This document shows, in pieces, positions 4,804 through 28,134 of a stretch of 34,311 nucleotides of DNA; the stretch's first letter is position 1, and each line of letters opens with the position of its first letter. Under the pieces are notes generated by a model, which saw only the letters and a program-made list of their open reading frames with translations, was not told the origin of the DNA and did not search any database. The DNA is taken from IMG/VR virus record IMGVR_UViG_3300030329_005476, positions 1-34,311 of that record; one strand, written 5' to 3'. Origin of the DNA: a virus. A program made the translations under genes and the position numbers.

Positions 4804-5233
4804 GGTCTTAGGGCCTGTAGAAATATATAAAGGAGAAAGATGGATGCCAGTAACTGAAGAAGTACAGCTAAAGTTTGACCATGATTTAGAGTTTGGAAGA
4901 CTTGGAGAAGATTTTGTTAAAGCCTTTCAAAGCAAGAACACAAAAGTAGAGGTTAAAACAGAAAGAGATATATGGAAAACCACAGGAAATATAGCCATTG
5001 AAATACGATGCAGGGGAAAATTATCAGGTATATCTGCAACTGAAGCAGAGACATGGATTCACCTGCTTAGTTACAATAACGTCATTGAAGGAGGTTTTAT
5101 TTTTAAGACACAGTTGCTAAGGGATAAGATAAAAAAGCTCCATAAGGACGGTAATTTAAAGCTTATAATGGGGGGTGATGATAAGATGTCTCAAATGGCG
5201 CTATTACCAATCAAGGAATTGTTTATAGATTAA
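4796..5233 (+). CDS. PD-(D/E)XK nuclease-like protein
   Basis: A 145-residue protein of a type common in phages. FDHDLEFGRLGEDF (residues 27-40) is followed by KVEVKTERD, which supplies E52-x-K54 of a PD-(D/E)XK active site, then TGNIAIEIRCRGKLSGIS and ATEAETWIHL. These pieces match the usual order in small phage restriction-endonuclease-like proteins. Start is uncertain: ATG 4796 overlaps the previous stop (ATGATTGA) but has a weak ribosome site; ATG 4844 has AAAGGAG at good spacing and still keeps the core; TTG 4778 is also possible. The stop overlaps the convergent giant gene. Probable role: DNA processing, repair or recycling of host DNA. Confidence 0.7.
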   Translation: MIEVLGPVEIYKGERWMPVTEEVQLKFDHDLEFGRLGEDFVKAFQSKNTKVEVKTERDIWKTTGNIAIEIRCRGKLSGISATEAETWIHLLSYNNVIEGGFIFKTQLLRDKIKKLHKDGNLKLIMGGDDKMSQMALLPIKELFID

Positions 5234-8200
5234 GCGAAGAATATACTGATTTTTGCTTCCATATTGTTTTGTTGCCAATAAGTTTTTTAAGTCGTCTAAT
5301 TGAGTGTTGGTAGTTTTTTTCAGACTTTAATGCTTCTTTATATTCTTTGTTCCCAAGATTTTCTTTAATCCAGTTTAAGAACATCTTCTTTTTTGACATA
5401 TTTTTGCCTGTGCTTTCATCACTTATTTTTAAAGGATTCATTGAGGTTAGTGAGCCTTTTATAGCTGCAACCGCTTTTTTGTGTCTCCATTTAGGTGATG
5501 AGTTTATTTCTTCAAGCTCTGTCACAATGAAGTTGTAGGCTGCAAAATAATTATTTATAATTTCCTTATCATTCCCAAAATATAAAGCATTTTTTAAATC
5601 TCTATAATAGTATGTCCTTTCTGTATAAGCATCAACGCCAGGCTTTTTAAATGATGGATAGTCATCTGAAAATTGTTTTCTCCAATTGTTGACTTTTTTC
5701 ATTAACCTATATTCGTCAGTATTTTTATAAACAAGCTGGTCCCACTGGCTGTAAGCCACATTCGTTTTTAATGCCCAATTATTGATTGCACTTCCAAGGT
5801 CGTCTCTTCCAGAAATAAATTCATTAAAATACCTCAATCCCTCTCTTGCATTTCTTGCTATTACAGGTTGTGCAAGCGACTGAAACATTCCTTCATCATA
5901 AGGACTAAATAAAAATCCTGCTAATCCGAGGAATTCTGAGCGATATAAATACATTGTCATTTTATCTAACCCTGTTCCAGCTGATTCTGGTGGCTCTTTA
6001 TCAAACAATGCTTTATAAAAACCATATAATGCGAACCCTGACAATGAGTGCATTGCTAAAGCTCTTCCTAATGGTGCAAAATTCTTATGAGTCTTTATAG
6101 GCTTGTAGTAATTAATATATGAGTCCCATGTTGTTGAATAGGCCATTCTTTGGAATAATGTTAATGGTCTTCCAGTCCTTCCAGATGCCCAAAGGGGTAA
6201 TAGTGCAACCGAAGTTCCACCCTGAGCTGATACATGCGAAAAATGTCCTGCTTGCCTTATCAAGTATTCATATCTCCCTTCGTTCTTTGATGACTTGAAC
6301 GATAAGTTTTTAACTTCTTTTGACGTTAAAAATGCAATATCATCATCAGAAAACTTCCAAACATCTTTCATTAATCTTTTTGCATTTCTTAAACTGCTTT
6401 CCCCAAAAAGCCCCTTATTACCATGAAGTATATTTAATTGATTTTGAAAAAAAAGTTTTCCAGCTTCGTGAGATATAACTCTGTTAAAGTTTTCTGACTG
6501 GGTCATAAAATTCCACTTAAATAGTTTTTCCATTGAAACCCACCCAAGCTTTGCTTGCCCTAGCTCAAGGTGTTTTGCACCATATTCCAGTATCCCTTTT
6601 TCTCTAGCCTCACTCCAGACACTTTTATCAAAAAGCTTAATAATCCCTTTTCCTGTATTTATAAATCCAAAAGAAGCTATTGCTCTAGGAATCCCAATCA
6701 TCATGTTCTTAAGACCTGAGGTTGGAGATGATAGTCCTGAGGCAGCAGAGAAATGAGATAATTTTGCAAGGCCTGAATGCATCTCTGAAAGAAGAGGGTC
6801 TTCTCCTTTAAATCCAATTGTTCTTTGTATCGACTTTAAGGCATAGGCTCCAAGGTCTCTGCTTTGCATCATGGTCTCTACTTTATTAATACCTGATTCA
6901 GATAATTTATATTTGCCTCCAAGGCCAGTATATTCAGGGAAAAATCTCACTGTTGCAAGATACTTGCTCATAGTCATAACATATGGTTCAATAGTAGAAG
7001 ATATATCAGTCTCGTAAACCCTTATAGTCTTATCTTTTCCTGTTTTCATATCAGTAATTGTGATAAACTCATCTATTAGCGGGCCTCTTTCCATAAGGTG
7101 TTTGTTTTTTACTTTATGATGCTTGTGTGTAATCATCTTAAGAACATCTTCAGCAACACTATTTCTAAAGTCAACATCCTCAATAAGTCTTTCTCTTTCT
7201 TTAGCTAGTTCGGCCCCCTCCTTACCAGTCTGTTCAGCCTTTTTCTTTGCAGCTTGTTTAATATTTTTATCTATTAATCCTTCTAAATTTTCTGCATTTT
7301 TTCCAGAAACAAAATATTCAAGAGCATCTTTTGTAATTCTTCTTGAAAAATATCCTTCAACAAATTTTTCATGAAATTCTTTTTCAAACTGACGATATTC
7401 AGCTCTATTAGTAACATTCTTAACTTCTTTTTTTAATCCTTTCCAATAAAAATTCATAAGCTGAGCATGAATCTTTTTAGCTCTACCTTCTTTGGTTTTA
7501 ATTAATTCGTCTTTAGTGTTGTGCTTTATTTCTTTGCCATTTACATCTTTAAGTCTTCCGTAAAAATTCAACTCTTCTTGAGTCATTCCTTTTATAGCTT
7601 TTTTATTCTTATTACCACTATCTTTTATCATTTTCTCTACTCTCTCAGAATCAAACATCCATACAAAAGATTTTTGTTTTTTTGTTAATAAGCTTTTGAT
7701 ATTAGATATAGAAACATCCCCATAACCTTTATATATATTATTTGCAACAACATCAAACTTTAAAAGCCTTTCTGCAATAGCCTTACCAGCATTGCCTCCA
7801 TATTTTTGAAGAACATAATATGTTGGGAGAACAGCTCTTTGAAGTCCAAAAGGAATTTTAAATCCTGATAAAACTTGAGCGTGGGTTTGACTTGAAGTTA
7901 TTTGCTTGGTAGCGCTGCCCTCTGACATTACTGCCAATGCAAATTCTGCTTTGCCAGATTTTGTTAATTTATTGTAATTAGCATCATATCGAGTTTGTTT
8001 CAAGCTTTGAGTTATTGAACGTGCATCTTCCTTTGTTAACTGATAATAGGTTACAAGCTCATCAAGGAAAGTTGTTTTTCCTTTACTTGCCTTAGATTTT
8101 TCATAAGCCTTATTAGTTCCCTCTAACCAGTCAACCCATCCATTAACAGCTCCATCCGTCCAATCTTTTTCCTTACCTTTTCCTTTCTTGGATATATCAT

Positions 8201-11200
8201 TAAGCTCTCTTCCAATGTCAAGAATTTCTCTTCCAACAGATGATTCAAGTTTTTTATCTAAATCTTTAGCTCTTTTAAGGTTTGGTGGTTTTTGCTTAGT
8301 GTCTTTTTGATAATGAGTCTCCATTCGACTTATATGATTTGCGATTTTTCTTCCTGTTGGAATGTTGCCCTTAACAACTCTTCTGCTTAAAAGATACGCA
8401 ACATCTTCCTTGCCTGCCATTCCAAATATATCTTTAAGCCTTGCATTGAACGCTTTTACCCAGCTTTTTGCCTTACTTATTAAACTTTTATTTGTAAGCT
8501 GATTTGTGGCTAATTCTCCAATTCTTTGAACAAGTGCTTCCTCGCTTCCAAACATTTTTTCACCTCTCTTAATAAGAGATTTGTCTATCTTGCTTCCAAA
8601 TGCTCTAAGCACATCAACAACATAGTGCGATACTTCGTGAGGAATTGTGTCAGGCTTAACCTTTCCTTCAGCTATTTTAATTGTATGTCCTTCAATTTGA
8701 CCAAGAACTTTTTCACCGCCTTTCTTTTTTAGCTTTTGATTAAGTATTATTTCAAGGTCTCCGTAAGCTTTTTTCCTTCTTGATGAGCCTTCAAGTATAA
8801 GTTCCTTCATTGATTGCTGCTCTTCAAGCCCAATCTCCATTTTCTCTTTAACTTTTCCAGTGTCAACTTGAGTTTTTCTTTTACCAACTGGTTTTTTAGG
8901 ACCTACGCTCCTGTCTAATAAAACAATATCTTTTAAAGGTACACCATTCTTTTCGCCTTTAAAGTAAATAAGCGTTTCTTCACCCTTTTGCTCTATTTTA
9001 CTAATTTCTTTAAATGGCTTAAGTTTAACTTTACCACCACCTTTTCCAGGATTATAAAATCTTGCTGCTTTTTCCCCTACCTTAGGCATTCTTTTTTCTT
9101 TTACCATGCCCTTACCCAAAAAAGGTGAGCCCTTAAGCTTATATAATACTCTAATTTCTGGAGCATCTTTTTTAGTTTTTGGAATTTCCTTTTTAACTGG
9201 CACTGAAGCCTCATAATCTTTTCGGTGTTCTTTCTGACCCCTTAAATCAGCCTGTTCTCTTTTTCCTTGTCTTTCTCCTTCAAATTCCCTTCTCATTAAT
9301 GACATGGGTTGAACACCTTTGGTTGCGGATTCTCCATCAGGAAGCTTTACCCTTTTCTTAAAAGGAACATATTCTCCTGTAGCTCTGTCGTAAACTTGAG
9401 GCTGAATATTTTCAGGAATATCTTTATAAATTTCTCTAAAAAGTCTATTTCCCTGGGTGGTTCCCTTGGCAGAGCCAAACTCAAATAATTTATCTCCTGT
9501 CTTTAGCCCTTTTCTTTTCATTAACTCTTTTATTTTTGCAACAGTTTCTGAAGAAAGCGTAATGTTTCTATATTCTTTTCCAGGAGCTCCTAGAGTAAGT
9601 TCTCCAGTATATAAAAGTTTTTTTGTTATCTTTATTCCAAATGGAGTTTCGCCAGGCCTCATGCGTGCCCCATCCATTACCTCAACAATAACATGAGCTT
9701 CATAAGAAGAGACCTTTTTCCCATCAATCTCATAAACTTTATCGCTTTTTTCAAGGATTTTGGACATCCCTCCTTCACCTACAATAGAATCCCTTCCTCC
9801 AGGAATTGTTATTGTTTTTCTTCCAATAACATGTCTTGTTCCTGCTTTAAGAAGGGGATTAAACCCAAGCACATCTGAAAGCCTGTTGTTTCCTCCATGT
9901 GTTTCATGTACCCCAAAAATATCAGCAAGGCTTTGGTATATTTTCTCGTATTTAGACTTAGCTTTATGTGAAGCTTCTTTATTCCCCCCAAAATGTTTAT
10001 CAACAGATGTTGCCTTGATGAGCTTTCCTGTTGATTTTGATACAATTTCAAAGCCAAGCTTGCTGTTTAAGTAGTCACGAATATGTATTTCAAATTCTTC
10101 TTTTGTAAGGTTTTTAACATTTTTTACACCCTTCTTATCCTCTATAAATTTAAATAAATCTACAGCCTCTTGAAGTGCTTGGGGCCCAATATCTTTTCTT
10201 TTTTGGTTTACAATGGCATCACCAATAATTTTTGAGTTTTCTGAGCTTAAATTAGCTTTATTAATAATATTTGCTCTATTTTCTTCGGTTTTCTTTCTTT
10301 TTTCTCCAAGATTCAAGCCTGATTCATCGGTTTTGTCAAGAAATTTTTCAACTCTTTTATCTGTATCTATAATTTCATAGTCTACCCCTTTTTCGCCTGA
10401 GGCCACATCTCTTTCATGTTTTTTCTTTGCCCTATCAGATTCAAATATAAAGCCAATAACATCTTCTCTATTGGTTATTTTTCCATCAACTTCCTTAATC
10501 CCTGCTACCTCATACTTTTTTGCTTTAGCCCTTATATCTGCGTCAGACCAAGTTTCTTTTGCTTGTTCTCTAGTGGCTCCCCCAACAGTTTTTTCTTGAG
10601 TTGTTGTTTGGTTTCTAAATTCTCCAAATTTTTCTTTTATCTTCTTTTCAACTTTCTGCATCTCAACAATATTTTCATTAATTTCTTTTTGAAGCTCTGG
10701 GTCTTTTGTATTCTTTTCAAGCTTTTTAAGGGTTTGAATTCTTTCAATTAAACCATTGTTAAGATTAACAACCGATTCAGCTAGCGCCTGCGAAGAAGGG
10801 TAGCCTTCACGTTCAGCTATTTCTGCAAGCTCTTTATCCGATTTTAAGTTGCCATCCTTGTCAAACATTTTTTCTTTATTTTTATGAAAATCTTTGAGTA
10901 TATCGTGCTCTGCCTTAGGAGCAGATTCATTTCTGATTGAGCTTTCTTCTGACTTACCAACTTCTTTATCCACCTCTCTTGATTCAATTCCTTCATCTCT
11001 TAAGGATTCTTGAGTTTCTTTTAATGCTTCGTTGGTTTTCTTTTCTTTCCAATCACTATAATCTTTTGTGGCTTTAGCGTAAGTCTCATTCCATTTTTCC
11101 ATTCCTTTCTTGGTTAAAATTCCTTGAGTCTTTAATGCACCGAATAGCCCTACATTTCGAGCAAATGTATGAAGTATTTCCTTTCCTTGTATATCTTCTC

Positions 11201-12197
11201 CAGCATGAACTCTTTCAGCAAGCTCAACACCACTAAATAAAGAGCCCTCTGCAACAACTTGACCAGGAAGTCCAACAACACCTCTTGATACCAAGTAATC
11301 TTTTAACCCTAAATCATCAAACTTTTTACCACCAGCCTTATTAAACATAGATGCCTGAATAGCTCCCATACCACCACCAATAGCTCCAGTAGCAGCACCT
11401 AACATGCCTCCATGAAACGCTCCCCAAGCAGCACCTTCCATAAAATTCTTGCCTTCAATCTCATAATTCATTCCTGTAATGGCAGCCTCATATAAAGAAA
11501 GAACAGGTGCTTGTTGAATACCGCCATATAAAGCTTTATGACCTTTTGACAAGACATCCATAACTGCTTTGTCGCCCAAAGGCATATAAGAGTTTTGAGC
11601 TTTTTTAACAAGCTCTCCAACAGGCTTTCCTTTAATTCCTACCTCAGCTGCTTTTTCTGCTACAGTTTTTCCAATCTTTCTTTGGCTTGACCTTATGGCA
11701 ACTTCTGTTGCAGCTTTTTGCTGAGCTCCTTGAAAAAGTCCTTTTTTAAGAGCAGCATTAGCAACTTTACCACCAATAAATCCACCTGCTCCCATTGTAA
11801 GGACATCTAAAGGCATTAAAAACGAAACCACACTAGCCCCAATATCTTGTAAAATACTAAAGTCAGATTCATCTACATCATATCTTGATTCGCCTGTGAG
11901 TAATTTTTCTGCTGTTCCTGTTAAAGACCTATTATAAGCAGCCTTCATGAAATCATATGAATTGTCATCAATCCACCAGTCTGCTAGGTTTGCAAAAAAC
12001 CCAAGGTCTTCAGTCTTTTTTTGTGTTTGTTGAGGCATTTGGTAGGCTTCTTCTTGCCATATTGCGCCTGTAGGAATTGCTTCGCCTTTCTTGTCTAGTT
12101 CCCAATAAAGAACATCATCAGGCATATACCTATAGTATTCTGGCCCTTCTTGTCTTGCTTTTTGTAAATATTTTTTTGTCTGTTGACTTATTGCCAT
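5223..12197 (-). CDS. Giant (2324 aa) internal/ejection protein with recombinase-like and zinc-peptidase domains
   Basis: The last gene of the late operon, probably packed in the head and injected with the DNA. Visible parts: a glycine-rich hydrophobic segment at 115-150 and another at 252-280, suited to membrane insertion; a charged helical region at 360-640; a tyrosine-recombinase-like region at about 650-1000 (core-binding helices, then MRPGE with R847 and E850, K874, R969, Y995); a zinc-peptidase motif HEVSH (H1187, E1188, H1191) with E1219/E1220 as possible third ligand; then about 1000 residues of mostly helical sequence with hydrophobic patches. Mixed enzyme domains in one long chain recall phage polyvalent proteins. 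No Shine-Dalgarno site precedes its ATG, 4 nt after the previous stop. No lysozyme motif was found. Confidence 0.75.
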   Translation of the reverse strand: MAISQQTKKYLQKARQEGPEYYRYMPDDVLYWELDKKGEAIPTGAIWQEEAYQMPQQTQKKTEDLGFFANLADWWIDDNSYDFMKAAYNRSLTGTAEKLLTGESRYDVDESDFSILQDIGASVVSFLMPLDVLTMGAGGFIGGKVANAALKKGLFQGAQQKAATEVAIRSSQRKIGKTVAEKAAEVGIKGKPVGELVKKAQNSYMPLGDKAVMDVLSKGHKALYGGIQQAPVLSLYEAAITGMNYEIEGKNFMEGAAWGAFHGGMLGAATGAIGGGMGAIQASMFNKAGGKKFDDLGLKDYLVSRGVVGLPGQVVAEGSLFSGVELAERVHAGEDIQGKEILHTFARNVGLFGALKTQGILTKKGMEKWNETYAKATKDYSDWKEKKTNEALKETQESLRDEGIESREVDKEVGKSEESSIRNESAPKAEHDILKDFHKNKEKMFDKDGNLKSDKELAEIAEREGYPSSQALAESVVNLNNGLIERIQTLKKLEKNTKDPELQKEINENIVEMQKVEKKIKEKFGEFRNQTTTQEKTVGGATREQAKETWSDADIRAKAKKYEVAGIKEVDGKITNREDVIGFIFESDRAKKKHERDVASGEKGVDYEIIDTDKRVEKFLDKTDESGLNLGEKRKKTEENRANIINKANLSSENSKIIGDAIVNQKRKDIGPQALQEAVDLFKFIEDKKGVKNVKNLTKEEFEIHIRDYLNSKLGFEIVSKSTGKLIKATSVDKHFGGNKEASHKAKSKYEKIYQSLADIFGVHETHGGNNRLSDVLGFNPLLKAGTRHVIGRKTITIPGGRDSIVGEGGMSKILEKSDKVYEIDGKKVSSYEAHVIVEVMDGARMRPGETPFGIKITKKLLYTGELTLGAPGKEYRNITLSSETVAKIKELMKRKGLKTGDKLFEFGSAKGTTQGNRLFREIYKDIPENIQPQVYDRATGEYVPFKKRVKLPDGESATKGVQPMSLMRREFEGERQGKREQADLRGQKEHRKDYEASVPVKKEIPKTKKDAPEIRVLYKLKGSPFLGKGMVKEKRMPKVGEKAARFYNPGKGGGKVKLKPFKEISKIEQKGEETLIYFKGEKNGVPLKDIVLLDRSVGPKKPVGKRKTQVDTGKVKEKMEIGLEEQQSMKELILEGSSRRKKAYGDLEIILNQKLKKKGGEKVLGQIEGHTIKIAEGKVKPDTIPHEVSHYVVDVLRAFGSKIDKSLIKRGEKMFGSEEALVQRIGELATNQLTNKSLISKAKSWVKAFNARLKDIFGMAGKEDVAYLLSRRVVKGNIPTGRKIANHISRMETHYQKDTKQKPPNLKRAKDLDKKLESSVGREILDIGRELNDISKKGKGKEKDWTDGAVNGWVDWLEGTNKAYEKSKASKGKTTFLDELVTYYQLTKEDARSITQSLKQTRYDANYNKLTKSGKAEFALAVMSEGSATKQITSSQTHAQVLSGFKIPFGLQRAVLPTYYVLQKYGGNAGKAIAERLLKFDVVANNIYKGYGDVSISNIKSLLTKKQKSFVWMFDSERVEKMIKDSGNKNKKAIKGMTQEELNFYGRLKDVNGKEIKHNTKDELIKTKEGRAKKIHAQLMNFYWKGLKKEVKNVTNRAEYRQFEKEFHEKFVEGYFSRRITKDALEYFVSGKNAENLEGLIDKNIKQAAKKKAEQTGKEGAELAKERERLIEDVDFRNSVAEDVLKMITHKHHKVKNKHLMERGPLIDEFITITDMKTGKDKTIRVYETDISSTIEPYVMTMSKYLATVRFFPEYTGLGGKYKLSESGINKVETMMQSRDLGAYALKSIQRTIGFKGEDPLLSEMHSGLAKLSHFSAASGLSSPTSGLKNMMIGIPRAIASFGFINTGKGIIKLFDKSVWSEAREKGILEYGAKHLELGQAKLGWVSMEKLFKWNFMTQSENFNRVISHEAGKLFFQNQLNILHGNKGLFGESSLRNAKRLMKDVWKFSDDDIAFLTSKEVKNLSFKSSKNEGRYEYLIRQAGHFSHVSAQGGTSVALLPLWASGRTGRPLTLFQRMAYSTTWDSYINYYKPIKTHKNFAPLGRALAMHSLSGFALYGFYKALFDKEPPESAGTGLDKMTMYLYRSEFLGLAGFLFSPYDEGMFQSLAQPVIARNAREGLRYFNEFISGRDDLGSAINNWALKTNVAYSQWDQLVYKNTDEYRLMKKVNNWRKQFSDDYPSFKKPGVDAYTERTYYYRDLKNALYFGNDKEIINNYFAAYNFIVTELEEINSSPKWRHKKAVAAIKGSLTSMNPLKISDESTGKNMSKKKMFLNWIKENLGNKEYKEALKSEKNYQHSIRRLKKLIGNKTIWKQKSVYSSLNL

Positions 12198-12201
12198 TTA
12201 T

Positions 12202-14214
12202 TTAATATGTTGCAACATCTTGCACTTTTTGTATAGCCGAAGCTTGGTTGTCCAATACCGATTTCATAAGACTTTCATAAAATTCTAAAGCAGATAAAAG
12301 ATGATGCTCTGTCTTAAAGTTGCCTGTAGCATAATGTTTAGCCATATTTCCTTCTCGGTAACTTCCACCTAGATTATTCCATCCAAGCCACTTTTCACCA
12401 TACTGTTTTTCTTTAGCTCTAAGAATTTTCCATGCATCAGTTCCCTCCAGACCTATATCTTTAAGTTGAGACATCTCAAATTTAACTTTATTATATTTTT
12501 CAGTATCTTCATCATAAACCTTTTTCATTTCTAAAAGCTCTTTATAGGAAATCCCTTTAATAGGTGCTTCTGGGTCAAGCTTTTCATTCGTATTGAAAAT
12601 TTTATTTCTAAGGTTAACTACTGTAAATTTGTCTGCTCCTCTTTGAGAATTCACATAATCATCACCCTTTGAATGATGCCATTTATAAATATTGTCCCAA
12701 TCTGTTTTCTTAAATGGCCCTGGATAACTTCTTGTAATTTGTGTTTTCCATATATCTGTAGGCATTAAATTTTCTTTTTGAAGATTTTCGGCAGACAGGT
12801 CTGGCCACAAGTCCTTTACTCCAAGTTTTCCGCTTGAAGCATCTATAATATTAAAATATTGCTCTCCACCATATTCTACCTTATCTATAACTTCTTTAAT
12901 TTGATTATAGTGACTTGTCATTTGTTTTAAAGGTTTCTTTAAATGGCTTTTACCTTCTGGGAAATCTTCAATATTTTTTTCATAGTTCCCCTTTGAAGTA
13001 TCTGCTTTAATTAAATCAGATTGAGAAAAATCGATTCCAGTTTCCTCTTCTGTTTCTGTTTCTGTACCAGTGATAATTTGGTCCTTAAGGTCAACCGAAT
13101 AATCAGGGACAGTTATGCCAAGACCTTCAAGTATATCTATCTCATGTTTATCTTTGTAAGCAGTATTGTATCTATTGGCTTCTCCAAGATAGAAAAACTT
13201 TTGAGCCTGAAGGGATTTTGTATATTCTCTTGCTTCCGCAACCTTATTTTCAAGGTCCTGTCCTGTACGACCTTGCCTTACATAATAATTTCTTATATCT
13301 GCCTCAGAGCCAACTTTAAATGTCTCTCTTTCTGTGCCAAGGTCTTCATCTCCTTCCAATGTATAAAGCCCTAACCTAAGAATGGTATCAAAATGCTTGT
13401 ATTGTTCTCCTAGCTTATATATTTGGTCTCTATTCTTCCCATCCATCCACTCAATTTCTTTAAGATTTCTATTATTCCATTGTTGAATTTTTAATGGATT
13501 TGGAGTTTTTAAATTTTGTTGTAAAAATTTTTGTTCATTTGGAGATATTCTTCCATCATCGAGAGCTGATACGGAAGAAAGTAATACATTTTCAAGTTCA
13601 AGATATTTTTTTGCAAGATATGGATTATTTCTATTGATTCTTTCGCCATGCCTGCCCATGAAGTCTCTCATATTGGTTCCATAGCTTTGATAAACACCTA
13701 TAAGCTCTTGCTCTTTCTCTGCTCTTGTTTTTTCTCCCCAATTAGCTTTCGCATAAGCATCTTTATCGGCTTGGGTTTCTAACGACCCATGCTGTGCAAG
13801 TTGCCCAACAAGGTCATATGCTTGATTAGGAAGAGCATCAATATTGCCAATCATAGTATCGTAATGATTTAAGTTTTCTGAGTGCTCCTTTAATTTCGTT
13901 TCAGTTATCCCAAACATATCCATAACATCTGCGCTCATTCTATTTAAATTATTTTTCTTATACTCAGTGATTTTATTTCTCATATTTGCAATAGATTCAG
14001 CACTATAATTAGACTCAAAGCCTTCTGTGAGAGCTGATAAAAACGAAGTTTGGGTGGAATCTCTATAGCTCTTGTTTCTACGAACCCCTGAAGCAATTTC
14101 TCCTCCAATGCCCAGAACTTGCATAAGATTCTTCATTGATGATGATTCCTTAAACCCACTTTTCTTAGGTCGTCTGAATTGAGATTCGTACTGATTTCCA
14201 AAATTATTTGACAT
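12202..14214 (-). CDS. 670-residue probable internal virion protein
   Basis: Unrecognised family. The protein opens MSNNFGNQYESQFRRPKKSG, an N-terminus related to those of the two genes upstream (MSNGFNNPY), then a short hydrophobic patch (LMQVLGIGGEIASG, about 30-43), long helical regions with many charged residues, and an acidic T/E-rich linker near residue 400 (TETETEEETG). Its place between the paralogous pair and the giant protein suggests a component of the ejected core. AGGAAA sits 8 nt before the ATG in a 34-bp block identical to that before the 304-aa gene. No catalytic motif is visible. Confidence 0.6.
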   Translation of the reverse strand: MSNNFGNQYESQFRRPKKSGFKESSSMKNLMQVLGIGGEIASGVRRNKSYRDSTQTSFLSALTEGFESNYSAESIANMRNKITEYKKNNLNRMSADVMDMFGITETKLKEHSENLNHYDTMIGNIDALPNQAYDLVGQLAQHGSLETQADKDAYAKANWGEKTRAEKEQELIGVYQSYGTNMRDFMGRHGERINRNNPYLAKKYLELENVLLSSVSALDDGRISPNEQKFLQQNLKTPNPLKIQQWNNRNLKEIEWMDGKNRDQIYKLGEQYKHFDTILRLGLYTLEGDEDLGTERETFKVGSEADIRNYYVRQGRTGQDLENKVAEAREYTKSLQAQKFFYLGEANRYNTAYKDKHEIDILEGLGITVPDYSVDLKDQIITGTETETEEETGIDFSQSDLIKADTSKGNYEKNIEDFPEGKSHLKKPLKQMTSHYNQIKEVIDKVEYGGEQYFNIIDASSGKLGVKDLWPDLSAENLQKENLMPTDIWKTQITRSYPGPFKKTDWDNIYKWHHSKGDDYVNSQRGADKFTVVNLRNKIFNTNEKLDPEAPIKGISYKELLEMKKVYDEDTEKYNKVKFEMSQLKDIGLEGTDAWKILRAKEKQYGEKWLGWNNLGGSYREGNMAKHYATGNFKTEHHLLSALEFYESLMKSVLDNQASAIQKVQDVATY

Positions 14215-17267: not shown

Positions 17268-18908
17268 TTATGAAGTAATATCCCACTTACACACTACAGT
17301 CATAAGTGTATCGTAAGATGTAGATGGAACTGTTACTTTAATTGCATACACCTTGCCTTTTGTCATAGTGTTAACCCCACTCGTCATTGATGAAAAGCTA
17401 ATATCTTGAGTTGTGTCGTCAGCTATATTAACAACAGTGTCTTTTGTTCCTGTAACACTTCCTGGGACCTCAGTTGCATCAGCTGCTTCATATATGTCTA
17501 ATTCTATTGTCCCATTTTGTGCAATCTCACTTCTAAATAATATTTTTTCTATACTTCCATTATAAGGTGCAACCATAGTAGCATACTCAGTAGAGTTGCT
17601 TAAAGTAGTCCTTTCAATAATATACCCAGGTAAAGGGATGTAATAAGATGTTCCTGAAGATGCCATAAAGTTACATATCTTGCTCTCATAATAATATTGA
17701 ACAGTTGTTGGTGTTGAGGCAGCTAAAGAGTTTCCATCTGTTATCTGTATATCATCACCATGTTCATTTGTAAAGTATAATTCATTAGGAGAACCTGTTT
17801 TAACCCATATCTGTCCATAACCAGACACATCAGAAACAGCTCCAGGCAATTCTTTTAAAAGTATAGAATTGTCTGATTTAAAGGCAGAACCAACAGGTGC
17901 AACTAAAGTCATATTACCATCAGGAGTTATTTGCAATTCTCCATCAGGGTCTAAAATTAAATGACCTACCGTAGCACCATCATCAACAGTAGCTAAAGTA
18001 GTTGCTCCTGATGCACCTATTGCAATATTGAAAAAATCAGCTTGGTCAGCATTATGATACATTCTAAGTCTATTTGAACTAATATTAGCTATAGTAGTTC
18101 CTGACCATTTAAAGTCAATTATCCCATCTTCAGAATCAATATTAATAGTTCCATCAACATCTAATGTTAAATCTGCAGCATGGGCCGCAGAATCATTAGT
18201 AGTTATCGTTGTAGCTCCATGAGCTTCTGTTTTAATAGATAAGTAATCATCTGTTGAAGCTCCACCATTTTCATATAAATAAAACCAAGAAGCAGAATGA
18301 TGAATTTGAAAGTCACCAAATAATGTGCCAGCATTTTTAAGTCCTATTTTATCGCTTGCGCTCGATAATACAGCATCAAGATAAATATCTCCATCAGCGT
18401 CTAAAGTTAAATGTGCTACCGCTGTATCAGCATCTATAGTAGTTATCGTAGTTGCTCCTTCAGCTCCAATACTTATATCAAAAAAGTCAGCCTCATTCGC
18501 ATCGTCAAATATTCTAAATCTTGTATTATCACAATCAAATACAAAATGCTTGGCAGTATCGTCATATATACTAACTTTTCCACCATCAGCATTTAATTCA
18601 ATATCATTTCCTGAATCAAGGGTAAGGCTGCCTAAAACGGAGTAAGTAGAAGAAAGTCGTCTGGACGCTCCTATGGCTTTTTGAATATTATTTATTTGAT
18701 TTTCAAGAGAATTAAATGAATCCCCTACCTTAACCCCTTGCCATTTCCCATTTGCCTTAATATATAGTTTTAATGCTTCGGGAGTAGTTCTAAATGTAAT
18801 ATCTCCTTCTTTACCATCTTTGTTAGAAGGAATTCCTTTTCCGATAGTGGGAACTGATGCCTTTCTTGAATCAAGGTTTCTTGTTGTGTGGGTACTTCTA
18901 ATACTCAT
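17268..18908 (-). CDS. Tail fibre/appendage protein (546 aa)
   Basis: The N-terminus (SIRSTHTTRNLDSRKASVPT and GKEGDITFRT) is a likely virion-attachment part, followed by a short coiled coil at 65-78 (SLENQINNIQKAI). Residues about 85-350 hold at least three copies of a beta repeat in which F-F-D/N-I-x-I-G-A-x-G-A-T-T is followed by a D-A/G-x-x-x-L-T/I-L-D-x-D-G phrase, typical of trimeric beta-helical shafts. After residue 420 comes a separate domain starting near YYYESKICNFMASSG that may bind the host receptor. The start overlaps the stop of the nozzle gene (TAATG). Host attachment is the likely role. Confidence 0.75.
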   Translation of the reverse strand: MSIRSTHTTRNLDSRKASVPTIGKGIPSNKDGKEGDITFRTTPEALKLYIKANGKWQGVKVGDSFNSLENQINNIQKAIGASRRLSSTYSVLGSLTLDSGNDIELNADGGKVSIYDDTAKHFVFDCDNTRFRIFDDANEADFFDISIGAEGATTITTIDADTAVAHLTLDADGDIYLDAVLSSASDKIGLKNAGTLFGDFQIHHSASWFYLYENGGASTDDYLSIKTEAHGATTITTNDSAAHAADLTLDVDGTINIDSEDGIIDFKWSGTTIANISSNRLRMYHNADQADFFNIAIGASGATTLATVDDGATVGHLILDPDGELQITPDGNMTLVAPVGSAFKSDNSILLKELPGAVSDVSGYGQIWVKTGSPNELYFTNEHGDDIQITDGNSLAASTPTTVQYYYESKICNFMASSGTSYYIPLPGYIIERTTLSNSTEYATMVAPYNGSIEKILFRSEIAQNGTIELDIYEAADATEVPGSVTGTKDTVVNIADDTTQDISFSSMTSGVNTMTKGKVYAIKVTVPSTSYDTLMTVVCKWDITS

Positions 18909-21900
18909 TACTTAACTCGTTTAGGTCTGAATATTATTGTAATGTCATTAATTTCAAAGTCTGGGGAAACTGCTCCTAAGATATATTTTGAGCTACTTGT
19001 TATCGAGTTCCCATATCCACGCTCTGTAAATGTGCTAACTGTAGCTGTTTGATTGCTTGTATTGTAGGAAGTTATCCTTCTAACATTATATCTTGCAGGG
19101 CCATCATAAATACTTAAAATATAATTACTATAATCTGTACTTTCCAAGTCTCCATGAAGTCTTGCTGTTGTTGTTCCCCCTGATACACAGGTAGTTGCTC
19201 CAGGAGAACTTGTTCCCACAGGGTTTGAAGAAAGAACAAGCTGAATACTTTTAATATTATTAATTGATGCCGATGGTTTTAATTCGGCCACCTGCCATTC
19301 TCCAGATGTATTTAAAAATCCTTTTCCTGCAGCTGTATCATAATAGGTTGAATTGCTAAATGTGGAGCTTGTTGTCCCACTTCCGTTTGTTCCATACAGC
19401 ATCTTAACGCCTGAGTGTCCTGTCGTTTTATATGTAACATATATTTTGTATATTTTTTTATCTACTGAGGGGCTTCCAAAATCAAAATCTTTGGATTTCC
19501 ACAAAGGATATGTATCTGTGCTTAAGGTTGGGTCTCCCTCTCCATCTGAATCATTGCTCCATTTATAAAAATTAACCTCTGTATTATCGGTAGCAGTGAC
19601 ATATGCAAACACCATATTTCTATGTATATTTATGAAATTACTATAATATTGTCCACCTGCATCTGAGGTCACAGTTGGAAAAAGATTTCCCCAAAAATAT
19701 GATTGATAGGCATTAAGTTCTAAATCATATAAAAGCCATATGCTATTACCACTACTCTTTATTTCTGGACTAAATATAAGTCTGTTACTTCTTTCGTCAT
19801 ATCCTATTAAAGAAGTAGCTCCTATAGTGAAACCATCGCTCTGAAGGTGGCGAGTCAAACATTCAACCCCTTTCCCATCAAAGAACCATAAACCTATATC
19901 ATTTATCCATGCAATACCGTTACTTGTTTTTACTACCTGGTGAGGCTTATTAACACCTGTATTAGGGTGCTCAGACTCAATAACGTCAAACTCTCCCGAT
20001 ATATTTAATATATATAATTTATCTTTTTTAAATTGAAGGAGTCTATCTCCAAATGATTCAAGTGCTGTAATTTCATCACCATCACCAACAGCAACATCAA
20101 GAAAATTAGTTTCAGGAAATATATCGAATCTATTGATAGGGCTTTTTATCATTCTATCAGGATAACTTCTGCCTCCTTGCCTTATGTTCCCTATATATAC
20201 TCTTCTTCCAGCAAGAGCAGATACGTTGAACTTGGCATCAATAATTGTCTCTGGGGAAAATCTATTTTCTGTTATATATGTATAAATTGGCTTCCCCTTA
20301 AGTTCTGTTTTTATGGTTGAACATTTTCCTGTACTGCTATAATCACTTGATTGTGCGAGGATTCGTTCATCTTCCGTATCTGCAAATATTTGATAAGTTC
20401 CTTTATCAAAATTAACACTTGAAAATAATAACCAATCAGGAGAAGAAGATTCATTTGTCACATCTTTCATATATATTTTAAATCCATTAATTCTTGGATT
20501 CCAAGTGCCATGATTGTTTCCATTTTTATATCTAAATTTTATTACACACTCAGGTATTGTTCTCTCTCCTGTCCAATCAACAGTAACATCTCGAGATAGT
20601 TCTTGAACTTTATAAATCTTAGAATTATCAGTAATGGCAAGTGCAGTTGTGCCATTATAACCCCTTCCTTTTGTGTTTGTGCCTCCAACCCCAACTCTCA
20701 AGTCATTACTGTTTTTGCTATCTACTCTTAATTGCTCATGATATTCGTGATAATAACTATCATAATTTGCACTATCTCCAGCAACATCAATCTGTATAAT
20801 GTCTCCAGCTGAAAAATCATCTCCTCTATCAACAGCAATGGTCGTGCCATCATCAGCTATTCCTGAGCCATTATCAACTAGGTTGGTCGTATTATTACTT
20901 GAATTTGTTTTAACCTCTAGCTTATGCCCCATAGTCATTAGTGACTCTTGTACTTCTTGCCCTGGTCCATCATATGTAAATGACATTGCAAAATTCCATT
21001 TTCTTTTTAAATCAGGAGGAATCAGCTCTTGGTCAGCTACGCTTGATGCCTTGCCAAGCAATTGACGAACTTGAGTTGTTCCAGAAATATTTCCAACCTT
21101 ATCATGAGACCCATGATAGAAGTAAACTTTGCTATTATCAGCGCTACTTCTCTTCCCCTCATATATTCCATTTATCTCTGGCAGTCCTGTTTGTCCTGTA
21201 ATTTCAATATATGCAGTATCTGCCCATTTATCATAGTCATCATCGCTACTATTCAAAAATGGCATGTCATCTTCACCTAAAGTGACCTCAATAGCTCCTG
21301 GGATTGATGTTGATGCTTCTTCTAAATCTACCCAGGAACCAGTTATATCAGCATAATATTGCTCTGCTGTGGCATCATGTTCATCAATGTAAAAAATAGC
21401 ATCATCATTATCAATCCTAAAAGTTGTTGAGGTTTCGACTGAGCTTACAGTCCAAGTATTATTATAAGTTGACATATTCTCGTTGTCTCCACTAAGGTCT
21501 ACCATTCCACTTATAACTATCTCGTCCCCCTCAGTAAATCCATGAGCACTGCTTGTATAAACTCTAGGGTTCGTAATAGGTATTCCTGTACCTGGGCATT
21601 CAATACGAGTTATTCCAACGCTAAGTCCTCCTGATGCAAATTCAAGCGCAACTTTTTCTCCCTCTCTTGGATGCCATCCTGATGATGGAGTCCCATCTGT
21701 TCCATAATTTATTTCATTCACAACCGTTAAAGATGGCTTTCCTTTGCTTTGTTCTGTCCAACTTACATTAGTTGGAGATGTTAAATATGAAGGATAACCC
21801 TTTCTCATATTGTTTGGAGGCTGTGGAGTCTGAATGTCTTCAGTCCATTCATTTACAGAAGTTGAGTTAGAACATTCAAATAATCTATCTTTTTTAATGT

Positions 21901-23020
21901 GTCCAAAATATTTAGGAACATTAGCGTAATAAATGATTGAATTATCTGAGTGAGTTGTTGCTTTTGTATTTGCAAAGCCTCTAATCACTACAATACTTGT
22001 TCCACTAGAAGAACCAGTAGTCACATACATAACCTCTTGGTCAATTTGTATAATAGAACCTTTAGCGATTGTTCCGCTTGTAGTTACAAGTTTTGCTTGG
22101 TCTTTTAATATTGCTCCATTAAGAGTATAGTTTGTGTTTTGAACATCAAAATTTGAATCACATACCCTTAATCCTCCATCAACATTATAATAATTAGGCT
22201 TAACTGTTGCTGTTCTGCTGCCAAGAGAAAACTTAGATGAATGCCAAGTAGTTGTATCTAAGTCATATATATCAATATCAGCAGCGTCATTTAAAATTAT
22301 TAAATCATTAAAGGCATCATCAGCTTCTTGAAAAGCTTTGAAGCAATATACATTATCAATTGTTCCTGCTCCTGCACAAGCTGATTGGTCTGCGGTAAAC
22401 CATAAATGACTTCTATCTGTTGGTGCAGTAAACTCAACCATATGAGTTCCAATATCATAATCTGCAGCAGATATATATGTCTCATCTGGAGAGCTTCCCG
22501 TAGCCTGATTAGCTCCTCCAATTGCAAGGTTTAGCGATGCTGCACCTACATCAAACCACAACTGATAGGTTACATCAGCATCTATTGCTCCCCCTCCAAG
22601 AGTATTGATTAATGAAGCATCTTCAGCATCAGAATATTGAAAAGCTGCTAATCCAGAACTTCCGCTATTAATATCCCAGCCATCATCATTTCCTCCTGCG
22701 TCTCTATCAGCCCAATTACTTGCAAAATCAGTTCCATTTTGAATAATATCTGTTCTTCCAAGATTATAGTCATGAGAAAATGCATGAAGTCCATATCCCT
22801 GCTCATAGCCTCCAGAAGATGCAGTAATGTCTGAGGTTGTATGACCATTTAAATTCGTCTTATCATACAATGATTTTCCATTTCCCTCAGTTATAAGTCT
22901 TCCAGGACTTCTAGTTGATAGGCGTGATAAAACATTTTGATTATCAGCAATATCTCTTGGGTCAAACTTATTATTTGACCCCCCATGAAACTCTAATATT
23001 TTAAACTCTTGTTTGGCCAC
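18908..23020 (-). CDS. Tail nozzle / tail tubular protein B-like protein (1370 aa) with inserted binding domain
   Basis: Residues 1-60 (EFHGGSNNKFDPRDIADNQN) look like the opening of podoviral nozzle proteins. The stretch at about 1040-1100, with LLQFKKDKLYILNISGEFDV and GIAWINDIGLWFFDGKGVE, is the beta-propeller phrase seen in T7 gp12-like proteins. Unlike T7 gp12 (about 800 aa), this one is much longer: residues about 95-235 resemble a carbohydrate-binding beta-sandwich (ending AGTIDNVYCFKAF), and further beta-rich inserts lie at 330-800. The start is GTG directly after the previous TAA, with no Shine-Dalgarno site, so coupling is likely. Probable distal tail tube with sugar-binding decoration. 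Confidence 0.72.
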   Translation of the reverse strand: MAKQEFKILEFHGGSNNKFDPRDIADNQNVLSRLSTRSPGRLITEGNGKSLYDKTNLNGHTTSDITASSGGYEQGYGLHAFSHDYNLGRTDIIQNGTDFASNWADRDAGGNDDGWDINSGSSGLAAFQYSDAEDASLINTLGGGAIDADVTYQLWFDVGAASLNLAIGGANQATGSSPDETYISAADYDIGTHMVEFTAPTDRSHLWFTADQSACAGAGTIDNVYCFKAFQEADDAFNDLIILNDAADIDIYDLDTTTWHSSKFSLGSRTATVKPNYYNVDGGLRVCDSNFDVQNTNYTLNGAILKDQAKLVTTSGTIAKGSIIQIDQEVMYVTTGSSSGTSIVVIRGFANTKATTHSDNSIIYYANVPKYFGHIKKDRLFECSNSTSVNEWTEDIQTPQPPNNMRKGYPSYLTSPTNVSWTEQSKGKPSLTVVNEINYGTDGTPSSGWHPREGEKVALEFASGGLSVGITRIECPGTGIPITNPRVYTSSAHGFTEGDEIVISGMVDLSGDNENMSTYNNTWTVSSVETSTTFRIDNDDAIFYIDEHDATAEQYYADITGSWVDLEEASTSIPGAIEVTLGEDDMPFLNSSDDDYDKWADTAYIEITGQTGLPEINGIYEGKRSSADNSKVYFYHGSHDKVGNISGTTQVRQLLGKASSVADQELIPPDLKRKWNFAMSFTYDGPGQEVQESLMTMGHKLEVKTNSSNNTTNLVDNGSGIADDGTTIAVDRGDDFSAGDIIQIDVAGDSANYDSYYHEYHEQLRVDSKNSNDLRVGVGGTNTKGRGYNGTTALAITDNSKIYKVQELSRDVTVDWTGERTIPECVIKFRYKNGNNHGTWNPRINGFKIYMKDVTNESSSPDWLLFSSVNFDKGTYQIFADTEDERILAQSSDYSSTGKCSTIKTELKGKPIYTYITENRFSPETIIDAKFNVSALAGRRVYIGNIRQGGRSYPDRMIKSPINRFDIFPETNFLDVAVGDGDEITALESFGDRLLQFKKDKLYILNISGEFDVIESEHPNTGVNKPHQVVKTSNGIAWINDIGLWFFDGKGVECLTRHLQSDGFTIGATSLIGYDERSNRLIFSPEIKSSGNSIWLLYDLELNAYQSYFWGNLFPTVTSDAGGQYYSNFINIHRNMVFAYVTATDNTEVNFYKWSNDSDGEGDPTLSTDTYPLWKSKDFDFGSPSVDKKIYKIYVTYKTTGHSGVKMLYGTNGSGTTSSTFSNSTYYDTAAGKGFLNTSGEWQVAELKPSASINNIKSIQLVLSSNPVGTSSPGATTCVSGGTTTARLHGDLESTDYSNYILSIYDGPARYNVRRITSYNTSNQTATVSTFTERGYGNSITSSSKYILGAVSPDFEINDITIIFRPKRVK

Positions 23021-27224: not shown

Positions 27225-27529
27225 TAAGTTAAAGACTCCGCTGTTTCGTCTGTATCACCTCTTAATAGTTTGTGAGGGTCTGCTAGTTTTGGTATCATAA
27301 CATATCTGTCATTTGAATCTTTTATCTCAACTCTAACAATATCCATCATTTTACTATCTAATTCGTACCACCTTTGATATGTAACTAAATCTGTTTTTGA
27401 GACTCTTGTATAATGCTGAATTTCTCCACTCATCTCAGTTAAAGCATCATTAATCAATTGTAACATTAATTTTTCTGACTGTTGCCCAAAAAGTTGTTCT
27501 ACTTGTTCTATTATATTTTTAACTGTCAT
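27224..27529 (-). CDS. 101-residue head-tail connector-like protein
   Basis: TAATG overlap on both sides. The N-terminal half is helical (IIEQVEQLFGQQSEKLMLQL) and the C-terminal half strand-rich (YELDSKMMDIVRVEIKDSND). The style matches small adaptor subunits that follow portal and capsid genes; the opening is similar in kind to the helix of the preceding adaptor. The fold and role are inferred from position and size. Confidence 0.5.
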   Translation of the reverse strand: MTVKNIIEQVEQLFGQQSEKLMLQLINDALTEMSGEIQHYTRVSKTDLVTYQRWYELDSKMMDIVRVEIKDSNDRYVMIPKLADPHKLLRGDTDETAESLT

Positions 27530-28134
27530 TATCTAGCTCCTTGTTGAGGTTGAGCTTGCACAAGCCCTAGTGCTTGAATACCTTGAGCATAATCTTGTTT
27601 TAAATTTTGTATTATAGGTAAATATAATTCAGGGTCTTCTTCGTCTACAGATAAAGATTCAAGGGCTCTTATTGCTGCATATATAATAACAAGATATTCA
27701 GCTTCATTTGGAAAATTAGATATAACGCTTACAGCACTTGCATCTATTGATGGGTCTGCAATTAAATAATATATACCAGATGATGATGCTGGAAGAATAT
27801 TTAACTTACCACCTTCCACATAATATACGGGGTCAGTTGCGGTCGCAAAATGCATACTACTTGAGTCAGCTGCTTCATATTTATTTTTTGGGTCTATTTC
27901 TCTACATTTTACAGTTCCAGCATAAACACTTCCAATATGTTTTGAAGCTATAGTTTCTGCCTCAGAGCCTGCGGCAGCAGATGTAAAAGTATTCTTCCCA
28001 TAACACATATTCTTCAATTCCTGAGGAAACATATTTATAAGCTCTCTTATTCCATCATTACACCATTGGTCTAGCTCAGTCTCAGTTACACTTGTTCCAG
28101 CTAGTGCTTGTATTTGCGCACTTAATGTTGCCAT
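27529..28134 (-). CDS. Head-tail adaptor / tail tubular protein A-like (201 aa)
   Basis: The N-terminal half has TETELDQWCNDGIRELINMF followed by PQELKNM, the helical opening typical of adaptor proteins that sit under the portal; then a beta-rich middle (KLNILPASSSGIYYLIADPS); then SNFPNEAEYLVIIYAAIRAL, the C-terminal helix also typical of this family (T7 gp11-like, DUF6682-like). It should form a ring joining portal to nozzle. TAATG overlaps occur with both neighbours. Confidence 0.65.
   Translation of the reverse strand: MATLSAQIQALAGTSVTETELDQWCNDGIRELINMFPQELKNMCYGKNTFTSAAAGSEAETIASKHIGSVYAGTVKCREIDPKNKYEAADSSSMHFATATDPVYYVEGGKLNILPASSSGIYYLIADPSIDASAVSVISNFPNEAEYLVIIYAAIRALESLSVDEEDPELYLPIIQNLKQDYAQGIQALGLVQAQPQQGAR

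Follow-up and report, generated by a model that had tools for sequence, protein, structure and literature searches.

The window analyzed here is the whole 34,311-nucleotide stretch of viral record IMGVR_UViG_3300030329_005476. Reading its ORFs gave one giant ORF of 2324 amino acids on the minus strand. The rest of the window looks like a short-tailed phage: its minus strand encodes a portal, a major head protein, and further late products, and next to the giant gene the plus strand encodes a DnaB-like helicase and a RuvC-like resolvase. A search of the window record with PF00589 found no integrase, even at an E value of 10, and neither lox-like inverted repeats nor terminal repeats exceeded chance when the window was scanned for them. 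The features of the giant gene are as follows.

5223..12197, minus strand: giant ORF, 2324 aa; putative internal virion or polyvalent-type protein
10950..12197, minus strand: conserved N-terminal module, aa 1-416, with Gly-rich hydrophobic stretches; present also in relatives that lack the recombinase domain
9192..10274, minus strand: tyrosine-recombinase-like domain, aa 642-1002 (hhalign with a null, Foldseek against PDB and BFVD, profile against PDB XerA)
9903..10190, minus strand: core-binding (SAM-like) helices, aa ~670-765 (HMM-HMM alignment with the core-binding part of integrases)
9648..9671, minus strand: Arg-I box, R847 and E850; invariant in alignment A5, aligning with integrase GLRvsE
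9576..9578, minus strand: candidate beta-hairpin Lys, K874; by eye, every domain-bearing relative has a Lys in the corresponding loop
9291..9293, minus strand: candidate second Arg, R969, of the HxxR box (His replaced by Ser); invariant in alignment A4, motif in all relatives
9213..9215, minus strand: candidate Tyr nucleophile, Y995, with the preceding GH box deleted or altered (alignments; register ambiguous)
8913..9170, minus strand: small beta-rich linker, aa ~1010-1095 (sequence comparison by eye)
8223..8840, minus strand: HExxH zincin-like peptidase module, aa ~1120-1325 (motif and conservation)
8625-8639, minus strand: HEVSH of the peptidase-like module, aa 1187-1191 (motif)
5277..7946, minus strand: conserved C-terminal module, aa 1418-2307 (family members 33-42% identical here)

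Neither of the two conserved terminal modules of the giant protein matched a known family. The genes directly upstream of the giant gene in the window (12202-14214, 670 aa) and in the relative L001 (L001:4929-7976, 1015 aa) gave no family above the cut-off; the end of the L001 product has a stretch that looks lysozyme-like by eye. Elsewhere in the window, a late ORF of 1370 aa (18908-23020) had weak PHROGs matches, all to families of unknown function, and a 201-aa ORF (27529-28134) matched a Gam-like host nuclease inhibitor family weakly and over a short segment (aa 18-47, E 2.8e-4).

A preliminary description made from the sequence had proposed a degenerate tyrosine-recombinase domain in this protein on the basis of seven motifs, and all were present as described. 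These are EAVDLFKFIEDKKG (aa 677-690), KYEKIYQSLADIFG (aa 749-762), VLGFNP (aa 776-781), YEAHVIVEVMDGARMRPGE (aa 832-850), GKEYRNITLS (aa 873-882), MSLMRRE (aa 965-971), and LRGQKEHRKDYEA (aa 985-997), with residues R847, E850, K874, R969, and Y995 at the positions given for them. The core-binding helices that it claimed line up with the core-binding region of integrases when the HMMs are compared.

Relatives of the giant protein

As a single sequence, the window domain found no integrase in Pfam, PHROGs, NCBIfam, PDB, or phage and plasmid records. Since the domain alone matched no family library, we gathered relatives of the giant protein. Using the whole giant protein or peptides from the window, L001 was the sole relative found in viral contigs. 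It has no recombinase domain: its alignment covers window aa 11-412 and 1418-2307, and everything between is absent. Degenerate patterns of conserved C-terminal sequence revealed further relatives, which were then extended to full length, bringing the set to about 20, all from viral contigs. Scans of genome contigs gave none. Searching phage records with the relatives returned integrases against the L007 domain and one unannotated record sharing the HExxH region, and nothing else. Two matches were rejected: an ORF of L077 that matched the domain was a chance match to a methylase-like protein, and a pattern match in L014 was a small unrelated HExxH protein.

Most relatives carry the domain at the same place, between the conserved N-terminal module and the HExxH peptidase-like module. 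Three (G001, G003, and G027) lack it. The N-terminal module is kept in L001 (aa 8-379, 30%) and in G027 (aa 9-397, 39%), and the beta-rich linker segment is also recognizable by eye in G027. For counting, near-duplicates were not treated as independent (G010 of G007, G011 of G012); with G017 pooled with G016 and G014 with G006, there were 13 distinct lineages.

The HExxH motif follows the recombinase domain; of the 15 distinct proteins that carry the domain, 14 have the motif intact. The exception, G009 (L033), has a recombinase-like domain followed by another segment. None of the three proteins without the domain has the motif: G001 and G003 lack the module, and G027 (L080) reads KEISKH. This association comes from a small and phylogenetically dependent sample. 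Because the module had no match in Pfam, its assignment as peptidase-like rests on the motif.

Ancestry of the domain

In one relative, the domain is unmistakably that of a tyrosine recombinase. The domain of L007 (G004) matched Phage_integrase PF00589 above the Pfam cut-off (52.6 bits, E 6e-14) and has the complete motif set R..K..HxxR..H..Y, with the Arg, the Lys, HHFRH, and LSH...Y. PF00589 also matched L005 (E 7e-6) and L017 (E 1e-3), and the core-binding region of L020 was above the Pfam cut-offs for the SAM-like families PF13495 and PF02899. In the records where PF00589 matched, the match was always inside the giant ORF and no separate integrase was found.

We then built an integrase HMM from 22 sequences, namely, 21 bacterial integrases and lambda Int. 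It detected G017 (1e-14), G016 (7e-14), G004 (6e-9), and G005 (7e-7) well above their shuffled copies. Aligned with G002, G007, and G025, the window domain scored 46.6 (E 1.2e-5) against this profile, and the match covered the core-binding helices, the Arg-I box, and beta strands. The best of 200 column-shuffled controls scored 22.3, and none reached the real score. Two aberrant scores appeared in the shuffle null of group B6, but 60 new shuffles gave nothing of the kind (maximum, 17.0). Against PDB, the sole match of the window-led profile was XerA (E 0.003).

The AlphaFold model of the window domain was weak (pLDDT 58, pTM 0.39). The top 20 Foldseek matches of this low-confidence model in PDB were all tyrosine-recombinase folds (best E 5e-3, full-length TM ~0.2) and included the pseudo-recombinases YopR/MrpR and SroF. 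In the viral-structure library BFVD, the matches were mostly phage integrases. The fold comparison suggested by the preliminary description thus came out on the side of tyrosine recombinases, and the domain that it proposed is supported by the profile null, by Foldseek, and by the Pfam matches of the relatives. No single line is decisive, but together they are concordant and largely independent. At the level of sequence, the resemblance of the window domain to integrases exceeds chance once the relatives are included, and descent of the domain from tyrosine recombinases is well supported.

Active site, exchange, and rearrangement

Both R847 and E850 are among the 14 of 361 columns that are invariant in the four-sequence alignment A5, and the Arg-I box with an acidic residue at +3, here Glu, is present in the window. 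The HxxR box of the window reads S-L-M-R. Its GH box, with the second His/Trp, is gone, as it is in G002; in both, the GH-box His was lost together with about 9 residues. The loss of both histidines proposed earlier for the window copy is therefore borne out. Y995 takes the nucleophile position if the alignment is anchored on the right (IPKT...) and the position of the GH-box His if it is anchored on the left, and because the two alignments disagree, its role is uncertain. Of the catalytic candidates named in the preliminary description, the Arg-I box and its Glu stand, being present in all relatives that have the domain; R969 and the Lys are found again as motifs, although their alignment is somewhat ambiguous, and the register of Y995 is ambiguous. 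The conservation check suggested in that description thus also came out in favor of the domain.

By motif reading, all 13 distinct lineages of the family have Arg-I with Glu at +3, the hairpin Lys, the second Arg, and a Tyr toward the C terminus, whereas the HxxR His is kept in one (L007/G004) and the GH-box His in nine, counts that were made partly by eye. Where the HxxR His is lost, its position is taken by Glu, Asp, Lys, Arg, Ala, Tyr, or Ser. The preliminary description had also offered a structural leftover as an explanation. The relatives are far less degenerate, though: one is complete and in several the GH..Y box is undamaged, so that the family as a whole is more than a leftover. Since the window copy has lost the GH box as well, catalysis by it is doubtful.

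Comparison of relatives module by module indicates that the domain is an exchangeable cassette. Between G002 (L043) and G004 (L032), identity is 61% in the N module, 26% in the domain, 75% in the peptidase, and 76% in the C module; between G006 (L036) and G008 (L042), the values are 64, 24, 78, and 70%, and here an ordinary domain is exchanged with a rearranged form. The shuffled background for the domain is ~26% identity. Sliding identity falls near aa 500 and returns just after the Tyr. The reverse pattern, in the same order, was seen for G006/G014 (60, 81, 76, and 63%) and G016/G017 (82, 96, 92, and 85%). For G016/G017, dS was 0.08 in the domain, against 0.65 in the N module and 0.56 in the C module, as expected after recent import. 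Domain dN/dS was 0.18-0.34 in three relative pairs. Taken together, these values and the identity patterns mean that the relatives hold the domain under purifying selection while exchanging it.

Four distinct relatives (L011, L016, L017, and L019) have a conserved stretch of ~115 aa after the GH..Y region, ending in (E/K)T(S/G)PRxxE(V/I) or a variant; in L016, the rearranged domain region is L016:5774-6919. As a profile, this stretch matches the integrase Arg-I box exclusively (0 of 200 shuffles). Upstream, the helix that normally precedes the Arg-I box is absent from the rearranged relatives, leaving a 17-column gap. The second Arg-I-like box after the Tyr is possibly the product of a circular permutation. 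L019 and L017, which still have GVRTGEI or GLRID in the canonical Arg-I place, could be intermediates. We put the permutation forward as a hypothesis because the model of the rearranged L016 domain is too weak (pLDDT 54, with no usable fold match). Among the open-access papers listed by a literature search, none described a permuted tyrosine recombinase in its title or abstract.

Possible roles of the domain

We propose, as the leading and moderately probable account, that a giant phage protein of the polyvalent or internal virion type captured a tyrosine-recombinase domain, that this domain is maintained there as an exchangeable cassette and is released after entry, and that in the window phage it is a DNA-binding pseudo-recombinase. 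Gene order in the window and in L001, the size of the protein, and its likeness to polyvalent proteins suggest delivery, in which the protein would be packaged and would reach the cell together with the DNA. The neighboring HExxH module would then cut the giant protein and free the recombinase domain. Zincin-like peptidases of polyvalent proteins have been proposed to release neighboring domains autoproteolytically (PMC5512222), and the association of HExxH with the domain fits that proposal. Once free, the domain would bind specific DNA. The likeliest target is the incoming genome, either its ends or a site in it; a site in a competitor or the host is another candidate. Relatives with a fuller active site, of the L007 type, may cut and join DNA in a Cre-like manner, e.g., in circularization or dimer resolution. 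For the window copy, without its histidines and GH loop, the most likely role by analogy with the phage repressor MrpR is DNA binding without catalysis.

A different account makes the recombinase active family-wide, the window included, through R-K-R-Y chemistry with non-standard replacements for His, acting on the injected genome in Cre-like circularization or resolution. The persistence of the Arg-I, second Arg, Lys, and Tyr in all distinct lineages despite ~25% identity speaks for it, together with the complete set in L007 and the purifying selection in relatives. However, the deleted GH loop and lost histidines of the window and G002, the possible alignment of Y995 with the GH His, and the empty recombination-site scan of the window make such activity unlikely. 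We find it quite improbable that the domain is a decayed integrase serving as a spacer without a DNA function: G001, G003, and G027 do dispense with it and several members have lost catalytic residues, but dN/dS is well below 1 in three relative pairs, Arg-I/Glu is invariant, and the domain is repeatedly swapped for versions of the same fold rather than for unrelated filler. That a helical, Lys-rich sequence resembles an integrase by chance would suit the lack of any single-sequence match for the window domain. Given the shuffle null, the PDB profile, Foldseek in two libraries, and relatives above the Pfam cut-offs, this explanation is exceedingly improbable, being essentially refuted by the relatives.

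The captured, DNA-binding cassette that we favor shares features with several known systems. Phages normally use this type of domain to cut and rejoin DNA. The domain has the two-part layout of Xer, Cre, and lambda Int (PF00589 plus SAM-like), i.e., core-binding helices and a catalytic domain, with the Arg-I box, Lys, and second Arg, and the GH..Y box in relatives. It differs in that it is embedded in a protein of ~2,000-2,400 aa, the HxxR His is replaced nearly everywhere, the window copy has no GH box, and the Arg-I box is possibly relocated in four relatives. MrpR/YopR and SroF, repressors of SPbeta-type phages, likewise have a phage tyrosine-recombinase fold with catalytic residues lost but are stand-alone repressors of temperate phages, outside giant proteins. 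In MrpR, the conserved Tyr matters for DNA binding even though recombinase activity is lost (PMC10516654). Polyvalent proteins, known from phages and conjugative elements (Iyer et al. 2017, PMC5512222), are also very large multidomain proteins with an HExxH zincin-like peptidase beside swappable effector or DNA domains; however, the text of that paper has neither "integrase" nor "recombinase," the N- and C-terminal modules here match no known family, and the peptidase here is motif-based. The ejection proteins of podoviruses (T7 gp14/15/16; PMC8954989) resemble the giant protein as a large protein ending the structural block, and T7 gp16 is described as entering the cell and as having cytoplasmic DNA-binding activity (PMC8954989). 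We found no sequence match to them, though, and that review has neither "recombinase" nor "integrase." In the open-access literature that we searched, no paper described an ejection or polyvalent protein with a tyrosine-recombinase domain.

A more speculative and unlikely picture is that of an injected giant polyprotein with a recombinase, built-in proteolytic release, repeated exchange of the cassette for versions of differing DNA specificity, and one branch permuted so that the Arg-I helix lies behind the Tyr helix. If true, a packaged recombinase would begin site-specific DNA handling ahead of any gene expression. The family offers a natural series in which L007 is a complete tyrosine recombinase, the window copy is a heavily reduced one, and a rearranged form is possibly a further step. 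If the giant protein is injected, ready-made phage delivery would extend to site-specific DNA recombination or binding, and the protection, joining, or marking of entering linear genomes, as well as the reason for the fast exchange of the recombinase region, would become testable.
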